Shown: piece by piece, positions 1 to 2,115 of the stretch | How the letters are laid out: each line of letters starts with the position of its first letter | Numbering within the stretch: the stretch's first letter is position 1 | From: an uncultured Algoriphagus sp. | GTDB taxonomy: Bacteria; Bacteroidota; Bacteroidia; Cytophagales; Cyclobacteriaceae | Direction: 5' to 3' | NCBI GenBank assembly: GCA_903952135.1 | Contig: CAJBER010000051.1 | Span: forward strand, 1-64,000 | DNA: 64,000 nucleotides | The notes under the pieces: model-generated | The model's input: the letters and a program-made list of their open reading frames with translations, nothing else | What the model was told of the DNA's origin: nothing | Databases searched by the model: none | Made by a program: the position numbers and the translations under genes

Positions 1-851
1 ATGTCTCGGATGTAACTCATCTGACTTACATTACTTGGAAAGTTGAGATCCTGTCCGAGTACTTGGTAGCCCGTCACTAAGATTTGCGCGTTTCCAAATC
101 GATCGGATAGCGCATTGATATATTCTTGCACATACTCCGAGGAGGGTGAAGTGGTGATGACTGTCAAAAGGTATTCGGGTTGGTGCAACTTGTACACGGC
201 CAGTAAGTCGTCATTGGGAGTGCTTTGTCCCAAATAGATCACTTTATGGCCCTTGGATTTGATCAAGTAGCTTGCAAAAAGGATGGAGATCTCGTGCAGT
301 TCACCTTCAGGAAGATAAAGTAAGAACTTTTTGCCTCCGCGCTGTGGAATCTGCCCATCGATGGCCACAATTAACTTTTGTCGTACCAGATTGGAGATAA
401 AATGCTCCTGTGCTGGATTGATGGCCCCCGTCTGCCAAAGCACGCCGATCTTGGACATGAAGGGATAAATGACGTTGAGCATGGTTTGCTCAAAACCCAG
501 TTTGATGATGTTGGTGCTCAATATTTTATCAAAGCGCTCCTCATCCATTTCGATCATGCAGATCGTCAAGGCATGAATCTGGTCGTCGTGAGTCAAGGAA
601 CGATCGGTGAGCTTCATGACTTCCTCACGCAATTCGTTCGGTGCCATGGAGGCAATTTTGCTGATTTTGACCCCATTGTCATTGAGCAGGGCCACGTTTA
701 AGATCAACTTCAAGTCGTCATCGTCATAGAAGCGGATATTAGTATCCGTTCGTTTTGGCTGCAGCAAATTGTACCGCTGCTCCCATATCCGTAGCGTATG
801 GGCCTTGATGCCTGATAATTGTTCGAGATCTTTGATTGAATACGTGCTCAC
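1..851 (-). CDS. MerR-family transcriptional regulator with C-terminal cobalamin (B12)-binding domain, CarH/LitR-like; truncated at window start
   Basis: Manual minus-strand translation from GTG at 851: VSTYSIKDLEQLSGIKAHTLRIWEQRYNLLQPKRTDTNIRFYDDDDLKLILN... (MerR HTH), then LWQTGAINPAQEHFISNLVRQKL and LPEGELHEISILFASYLIKSKGHKVIYLGQSTPNDDL (B12-binding fold). Not in ORF track because it runs off the edge. GTG overlaps the crtZ stop (TAGTG). Confidence 0.88.
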   Translation of the reverse strand, partial: MSTYSIKDLEQLSGIKAHTLRIWEQRYNLLQPKRTDTNIRFYDDDDLKLILNVALLNDNGVKISKIASMAPNELREEVMKLTDRSLTHDDQIHALTICMIEMDEERFDKILSTNIIKLGFEQTMLNVIYPFMSKIGVLWQTGAINPAQEHFISNLVRQKLIVAIDGQIPQRGGKKFLLYLPEGELHEISILFASYLIKSKGHKVIYLGQSTPNDDLLAVYKLHQPEYLLTVITTSPSSEYVQEYINALSDRFGNAQILVTGYQVLGQDLNFPSNVSQMSYIRD

Positions 852-1294
852 TACTCCTCCTTGTTAAAGAATTGTTTGGGGACTAAAAATAAACCAAAAG
901 AAACTGCATCCTCCTTTTGGTTGGTTTTGTGATGTGCCTGATGTGCCTTGTAGATTCCCTTCAAAACAGGATGCTTGGGTTTGCTAAACCACCGCAAGCG
1001 GCGGTGAACCAGCACGTCATGCAATACAAAATAGAGCATGCCGTACAAGCTTATCCCTACACCCATCCAAAATCGGTAGTCCAATTGCTCCACTCCGAAA
1101 AAGATCAACACCACCGCAATGCTTCCAAATAGCAGGGAAAACAGGTCGTTCCATTCAAAAAAAGAATGGGAAGGCTGGTGATGGGTCTTGTGAATCATCC
1201 AAAGAGGACCATGCATCAAATACTTATGAATAAACCAGCCAGAGAGTTCCATGGCGGCAAATCCAAGAGCGATATAGACGATAGACATCAACAT
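851..1294 (-). CDS. crtZ: beta-carotene hydroxylase CrtZ (fatty acid hydroxylase superfamily)
   Basis: MLMSIVYIALGFAAMELSGWFIHKYLMHGPLWMIHKTHHQPSHSFFEWND...VLHDVLVHRR...KAHQAHHK: His-box pattern of CrtZ. ORF track start (1414) overlaps the upstream gene; ATG at 1294 more likely. Confidence 0.88.
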   Translation of the reverse strand: MLMSIVYIALGFAAMELSGWFIHKYLMHGPLWMIHKTHHQPSHSFFEWNDLFSLLFGSIAVVLIFFGVEQLDYRFWMGVGISLYGMLYFVLHDVLVHRRLRWFSKPKHPVLKGIYKAHQAHHKTNQKEDAVSFGLFLVPKQFFNKEE

Positions 1295-1353: not shown

Positions 1354-2019
1354 TTAAGAAATAACCGTAAAATTTAAAAGTGTGAAAAAGAGAATCCAAG
1401 TGATCAAAAGCCAAGTGGCCAATGGATTGTATTTTTCAAATTTGGCTTTCCGCCAGATGAGCTGAATTAGGAAGGACACTCCAAACCAACCTAGGTAATT
1501 GCTGACCGGAATGATGTCCCACTTCCATGCCCAAAAATTAAGTGATACGGCCACAGGCTCCAAGATGTAATCCAATGCAGTCATGGCGGTGGCACCCAAA
1601 AAGGCCGCATACCAATCGTTGGGAATCTTGTGGAATACCGATCCTGTCAAGTAACTCAGCACAAACCAGTTGACCCCAATCACCAAAGGGACTTCCCACA
1701 GCATCACACCCAAAGTAGGTCCATATACATAGTCCCCATACAAATAGCCGGTGTGGATTCCGATCAATTCGGATCCAAAACCAATCCAAAATGCTGCCGC
1801 TCCAAAAATGGGAAAGGAATCTGTCCACCCTCGGTGATAGACCAAAATAAGTCCCATCGTGGCCAACAAATGAAAGGGAGTCAAGGCTAAAAATAGGTCT
1901 CGGTACTCCGGAAGGCTTAGTCCAATGGCGCCGACTACATGGAAGGCAACCAAGATAAGTTTGCCAATCCCCACGCGTGACCACCTATTGTTTACTTCAG
2001 AAGAATCGATTTTATGCAT
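1354..2019 (-). CDS. carotenoid biosynthesis protein (DUF422/CruF-like membrane protein)
   Basis: MHKIDSSEVNNRWSRVGIGKLILVAF...FGSELIGIHTGYLYGDYVYGPTLGVMLWEVPLVIGVNWF...ALDYILEPVAVSLNFWAWKW; multi-TM. Extension to 2466 in the ORF track is antisense to the next gene, so rejected. Confidence 0.8.
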   Translation of the reverse strand: MHKIDSSEVNNRWSRVGIGKLILVAFHVVGAIGLSLPEYRDLFLALTPFHLLATMGLILVYHRGWTDSFPIFGAAAFWIGFGSELIGIHTGYLYGDYVYGPTLGVMLWEVPLVIGVNWFVLSYLTGSVFHKIPNDWYAAFLGATAMTALDYILEPVAVSLNFWAWKWDIIPVSNYLGWFGVSFLIQLIWRKAKFEKYNPLATWLLITWILFFTLLNFTVIS

Positions 2020-2115
2020 AGTTCGGAGACCGTGAGGGGGATTCCATTTGGGATTCCTAACTTTGTGGGCTAGAAATTGTTCTACGCAAAAGTAATAAAA
2101 CCAAAGACCAGAGCC

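Follow-up and report, generated by a model that had tools for sequence, protein, structure and literature searches.

Does the regulatory gene truncated at this contig end, beside carotenoid genes, encode a light switch for pigment synthesis and, if so, through which DNA site would it act? The window, that is, the whole analysed stretch of 64,000 nucleotides from an uncultured Algoriphagus sp., begins where contig G000:C51 itself begins, and there a sequence-only reading had suggested a truncated gene with a MerR helix-turn-helix and a B12 domain. The gene is there: its frame occupies 851..3 on the minus strand, has a GTG start and runs off the start of the window. Contig G000:C63 overlaps C51 by 119 identical bases and completes this carH-like gene, with a stop at C63:165. 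The joined product has 298 residues; the window (3..851, minus strand) holds the first 283 of the 298 codons, and the remainder lies on G000:C63:120-165. This join was based on the 119-base overlap. Close relatives carry an uninterrupted gene, for example L058 (Cyclobacteriaceae RE-16jun15-172), which is 95% identical.

Pfam searches with the product identified MerR_1 (E 1.9e-15; residues 4-70, encoded at 642..842 on the minus strand and including the recognition helix RIWEQRY) and B12-binding_2 (E 1.9e-11). A third match, to B12-binding (PF02310), had an E value of 2.8e-4 and fell under its curated cut-off, although the structure model predicts a Rossmann fold for this part. Taken together, Pfam, PDB and fold comparisons yielded a MerR domain followed by B12-binding_2 and B12-binding, the architecture of CarH and class I LitR proteins, and not that of class II LitR, which has the four-helix B12 domain only and no Rossmann domain. 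The top PDB match by sequence was Thermus CarH/LitR (E 2e-20), and a fold search with the predicted model (mean pLDDT 91.5) likewise ranked Thermus CarH first, at E 1.8e-15. The NCBIfam equivalog for CarH, NF052513, was the top-scoring named family, yet its 96 bits fall short of the 400-bit cut-off.

Aligning the full-length protein with Thermus CarH, the check that the first reading had proposed, showed that the Trp, Glu and His residues of both motifs are all retained: W139/E149/H150/E184/H186 are equivalent to CarH W131/E141/H142/E175/H177. The predicted upper-ligand capping motif Wx9EH is intact and reads W139-QTGAINPAQ-E149H150 (402..437, minus strand), exactly as claimed. The same holds for the ExH proposed at the lower-axial-ligand position, E184-L-H186-E-I-S189, in which E184-L-H186 (294..302, minus strand) aligns with CarH E175-R-H177 and H186 is the predicted lower axial ligand of cobalamin. 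All elements of the light-response signature GxxW, EH, GxxH and GxxxP (PMC11796333) are present (G136, W139, E149H150, G183, H186, G208 and P212). By contrast, the strict classic B12 motif, D/ExHx2G/P-x41-SxT/V-x22-27-GG, is degenerate, with ExHxxS, T230 for S and T260-G261 for GG, although its E and H are present. Two further CarH features are replaced: the Arg176-Asp201 dimer contact by Leu185/Ser210, and His132, the residue after the capping Trp, by Gln140. The Thermus H132A variant mostly stays tetrameric in the light (PMC10442372), whereas domains bearing Arg, Gln or Tyr where CarH has His132 are reported to respond to light (PMC11796333). The light state of the carH-like product, if there is one, would thus probably be reached by a route other than bis-His ligation, and the protein is well suited to asking whether His132 is indispensable to a CarH-type switch.

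Among 126 non-redundant homologues, W139 and E184 are invariant, H186 is present in 117, and the RxWExRY motif of the recognition helix is nearly invariant. Residue 189 is S in 77, G in 27 and A in 11, so the Ser that had been remarked on in place of the usual Gly of ExHxxG is the commonest residue of the clade and a feature of it rather than damage. Only 9 of the 126 have lost part of the W/EH/ExH set, and all of these lie outside crt clusters. Homologues linked to crtI or crtB comprised 39 intact and no broken copies, compared with 48 intact and 9 broken among the others (p 0.01, kinship ignored); with any of ECF, crtB, crtI, crtZ or DUF422 on the locus, the figures were 73 intact and 1 broken, against 14 and 8 without (p 2e-5, kinship again ignored). 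Seven relatives, mostly from Saprospiraceae MAGs (L100, L104, L113, L115, L120, L121 and L129), have Gln for the lower-axial His and have often lost the EH pair, and their sequences point to a probable loss of B12 sensing.

These residues bear on whether the protein could be a repressor that does not sense light directly, and instead responds to cobalamin status or has its repression lifted by another protein, with or without bound B12. The degenerate classic motif and the Gln for His132 speak for such a repressor, as do the precedents of CarA, relieved by CarS (PMC9304148), and class II LitR, relieved by a LOV protein (PMC9758184). However, the Trp of Wx9EH that the B12-independent paralogue CarA lacks is found here and in 126 of 126 homologues, every crt-linked copy has the full signature, both B12 domains are present, unlike in class II LitR, and the apparent targets described below are light-related genes. 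We therefore regard a repressor of this kind as unlikely, and favour a CarH-type photoreceptor.

The carotenoid neighbours named in the sequence-only reading, crtZ and DUF422, were both recovered by Pfam, and the remaining crt operon lies on C63. The joined gene order is DUF422–crtZ–carH, a 168-base gap, and then ECF sigma factor–crtI–crtB–lycopene cyclase–ispH–crtW-like ketolase; crtI scored 750 bits with NCBIfam CrtID (cut-off 640). The crtZ-like carotene hydroxylase gene (FA_hydroxylase; 851..1291, minus strand), whose stop overlaps the carH start, is kept upstream of carH in relatives, and DUF422 (Caroten_synth; 1354..2019, minus strand) is the first gene of the carH transcript. Relatives of carH were present in 129 of 149 family genomes, and the carH–ECF–crtI–crtB arrangement is common among the genomes that carry them.

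Upstream of DUF422, a divergent intergenic region (2020..2115) is the probable site of the DUF422–crtZ–carH promoter and contains the block AACAA-N11-CAAAGTTAG at 2057-2081 on the minus strand. This block is conserved in close relatives and is the sole exact copy in the genome. On its opposite strand stands TAACTTTG, which could serve as a −7 box for DUF4286 and TspO, the two genes that run divergently from here (2116-2889); DUF4286 is a neighbour in many relatives and TspO in the closest ones. We rejected the block as a shared ECF-dependent promoter: any other copy in the genome has at least two mismatches, and the control pattern gave more hits than the block did. Consequently, no ECF regulon could be drawn.

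The gap between carH and the ECF gene contains a perfect inverted repeat, TTGTTTAATCGTACTTAGATTTGATTAAACAA, at positions 314-345 of locus L003 (G000:C63), outside the window. The core of this candidate operator is TGTTTA-N18-TAAACA, and within its spacer lies a −7 box, TAGATTTG, 19 bases after a TTG; the resulting TTG-N19-TAGATTTG matches the flavobacterial promoter consensus (PMC3587595). A second, imperfect copy of the operator occupies L003:270-301, 44 bp upstream, a spacing retained in many relatives. The ECF gene itself likely starts at the ATG at L003:358 and not at the TTG at 334, which falls inside the operator. Additional TTAAACAA/TTGTTTAA half-sites are found right after the carH stop (L003:163-194), in L058 too.

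Across Bacteroidota loci in which carH is followed by an ECF gene, the exact core occurred in 48 of 54 gaps, and in 50 when one mismatch was allowed. The signal was specific to this spacing, as gap lengths of 16, 17 and 20 yielded no exact site in the same 54 gaps, and base-shuffled gaps contained a mean of 0.01 exact sites. The 16-base palindrome has one exact copy in the window's genome. In seven family genomes, carH lies apart from the ECF gene, and in each of them (7/7) the exact core remained at the ECF–crtI promoter; the site therefore belongs to the ECF–crt promoter rather than to the end of carH, which ruled out a carH terminator or mere synteny with carH. Its half-site TAAACA conforms to the TnnACA core of CarH operators, which are 11-bp repeats, nnnnTnnACAn, in a tandem direct array (PMC9304148). 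The core is the same, but the two cores face each other here instead of forming direct repeats.

An inverted repeat at a promoter is also what a classical MerR activator would bind, given that the sites of those proteins are (pseudo)palindromic (PMC8156234), and the carH-like protein might in principle activate the ECF–crt promoter in this manner. Yet the repeat spans the −7 box within its spacer, TTG-N19-TAGATTTG resembles an ordinary promoter of the phylum, and characterised CarH/LitR proteins of the same architecture are repressors (PMC8156234). Activation is, in our judgement, the least probable of the readings we weighed, and we favour repression.

The exact site was not confined to carotenoid operons. 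It also precedes genes of the bacteriorhodopsin family; in L189 and L198, the next gene encodes a lycopene cyclase. Considering family rhodopsins with a full 350 bases upstream, we found it before 35 of 45 of the DTE (proton pump) type and 2 of 14 of the NDQ (sodium pump) type (p 3e-5), and a reversed control pattern had no occurrence upstream of the same genes even with one mismatch allowed. At rhodopsins L294 and L298, a second copy of the site holds TAnnTTTG in the register of the ECF promoter. In a phylum-wide draw, 9 of 12 DTE rhodopsins from the window's class had the site (at most one mismatch), as against 0 of 19 outside it. A search of 32 of the rhodopsin genomes in this draw with the family profile found a carH relative in 13 of 13 from the window's class; of the 19 outside the class, 18 had no match and 1 matched only in part, its DNA-binding portion being of another kind. 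Within the family draw, carH was present in 52 of 52 genomes whose rhodopsin match exceeded the cut-off, and none of the 20 carH-negative genomes had such a rhodopsin. The co-occurrences of rhodopsin, site and carH are correlations across related genomes, with kinship ignored. The window's own genome had no rhodopsin match, so the rhodopsin branch of the regulon concerns only its relatives.

Exact sites at genes far from carH would equally be expected if the palindrome served another Bacteroidia regulator of light-related genes and the carH neighbour acted elsewhere. This seems quite improbable to us: the half-site fits the CarH core TnnACA, the site is found in 48 of 54 carH–ECF gaps and near carH in several other loci, and the rhodopsins that bear it reside in carH-bearing genomes, whereas rhodopsin genomes outside the class have neither. 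MliR, a MerR-like regulator of Bacteroidota, was set aside as a rival because it lacks an effector domain.

We thus think it likely that the gene encodes a CarH-type adenosylcobalamin (AdoCbl) photoreceptor-repressor of the ECF–crt operon and, in relatives, of rhodopsin. The link between protein and candidate operator is a correlation; AdoCbl binding, the light response, repression rather than activation, and CarH as the ligand of the operator are what we infer, the biochemical steps coming from CarH/LitR (PMC8156234, PMC9304148). With H186 below it and W139/E149/H150 above, AdoCbl would in darkness keep the protein in a DNA-binding oligomer seated on the two inverted-repeat operators, the second imperfect and 44 bp apart, before the ECF sigma gene. 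The proximal operator, by covering the −7 box TAGATTTG, would keep RNA polymerase off the ECF–crtI–crtB–cyclase–ispH–crtW operon. Light would break the Co–C bond and release the repressor, allowing the sigma factor and crt enzymes to be made, and the ECF factor may in turn boost expression or target DUF422–crtZ–carH. In relatives, proton-pumping rhodopsin genes would answer to the same switch through this operator, as would a pterin-synthesis gene in two genomes. The genome encodes a PduO-type adenosyltransferase and two subunits of the AdoCbl-dependent methylmalonyl-CoA mutase, and should therefore hold AdoCbl; a search of the genome for a cobalamin riboswitch found none. The hypothesis of light-controlled carotenogenesis first put forward for this locus is accordingly strengthened by the parts that sequence can test, namely the CarH-like architecture and signature, the crt operon immediately downstream, the AdoCbl-making enzyme and a candidate operator that is widely conserved in Bacteroidia and found again at other light-related genes. 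For the broader proposition, that across Bacteroidia a CarH-type photoreceptor with a TGTTTA-N18-TAAACA operator controls ECF sigma–crt carotenoids and proton-pumping rhodopsins without a bis-His light state, we see a slightly better than even chance.

A regulatory pair of comparable layout is that of Streptomyces coelicolor, in which we take LitR and the ECF sigma factor LitS to be adjacent to the crt cluster. By description, our locus resembles LitR–LitS in combining a LitR-type regulator with an ECF sigma factor at a crt cluster, a tie given in the title of Takano 2005 (cited in PMC6739363). With Thermus thermophilus CarH (class I LitR; PDB 5c8d, 5c8e, 5c8f), the protein shares the MerR, four-helix and Rossmann B12 architecture, Wx9EH, the lower-axial His, the half-site core TnnACA and adjoining carotenoid genes. 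The two are 22% identical when aligned by fold, and the protein differs in its Gln for His132, its S in ExHxxG and the lack of the Arg176-Asp201 pair. Its candidate operator, before an ECF sigma gene, consists of inverted half-sites separated by 18 bp, and not of three tandem 11-bp direct repeats. The class II LitR proteins of Pseudomonas (PplR1, PmlR2) similarly have two TnnACA-type half-sites at a fixed gap over a promoter, with N12 in TRTACA-N12-TGTAYA (PMC9758184) as against N18 here, but they lack one of the two B12 domains that the carH-like product has, and are relieved by a LOV protein. CtMerR and the photocobilin SasPcob (PMC11796333) have cobalamin domains that respond to light and carry the same signature, with Arg or Gln at the His132 position, but have other DNA-binding or output domains. 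Because the product agrees with CarH in architecture, Wx9EH and light signature, and departs from it in the strict B12 motif, the equivalog cut-off and the direct-repeat operator, we assign it to a Bacteroidota variant, not CarH itself, that judging from its sequence probably works like CarH.

Four things add to what the first reading had noticed: the ECF sigma gene that separates carH from crtI, the Gln for His132, the inverted-repeat operator and the rhodopsin link. To a specialist, the news would lie in the conserved operator and in its connection with rhodopsin genes. Judged by titles and the opening of abstracts, no paper on CarH/LitR of Bacteroidota or on a proteorhodopsin–LitR link came up in a search that mostly left out subscription papers, so earlier work may exist. 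The accessible part of a paper on light-induced carotenoids in Chryseobacterium lacus speculates on a CarA/LitR-like role for a gene beside crtB, and shows no B12-type regulator there. A 2013 study of proteorhodopsin-bearing Dokdonia stated that regulation of the gene in these flavobacteria needs further work (PMC3587595). With the operator come a candidate for the regulator, a site of 30 bp and a set of target genes, which makes rhodopsin regulation testable in cultured strains. If the proposal is true, two light systems, carotenoids and rhodopsins, are tied to vitamin B12 supply; with the same candidate switch preceding light-driven proton pumps in relatives, vitamin B12 may signal usable light.

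Several other loci carry variations on this arrangement. In two genomes of the window's genus, the exact site precedes a pyruvoyl-tetrahydropterin synthase gene (L149, by Pfam match; L154, recognised from the start of the protein only), followed in L149 by a GTP cyclohydrolase I gene; in Pseudomonas, the genes that light induces through class II LitR include folE (PMC9758184). Two carH relatives, L327 and L328 (G515 and G218), have EQ in place of EH in Wx9EH, and neither of their genomes has the exact N18 site at its rhodopsin gene; in one, an N19 version stands there. No crt gene was found at L127, where the gene after ECF encodes a DNA photolyase; this locus apart, the genes beside some of the crt-less carH–ECF pairs showed no common theme. 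These crt-less pairs (L107-L132) come from Bacteroidales and other MAGs, and most have the palindrome in the gap.
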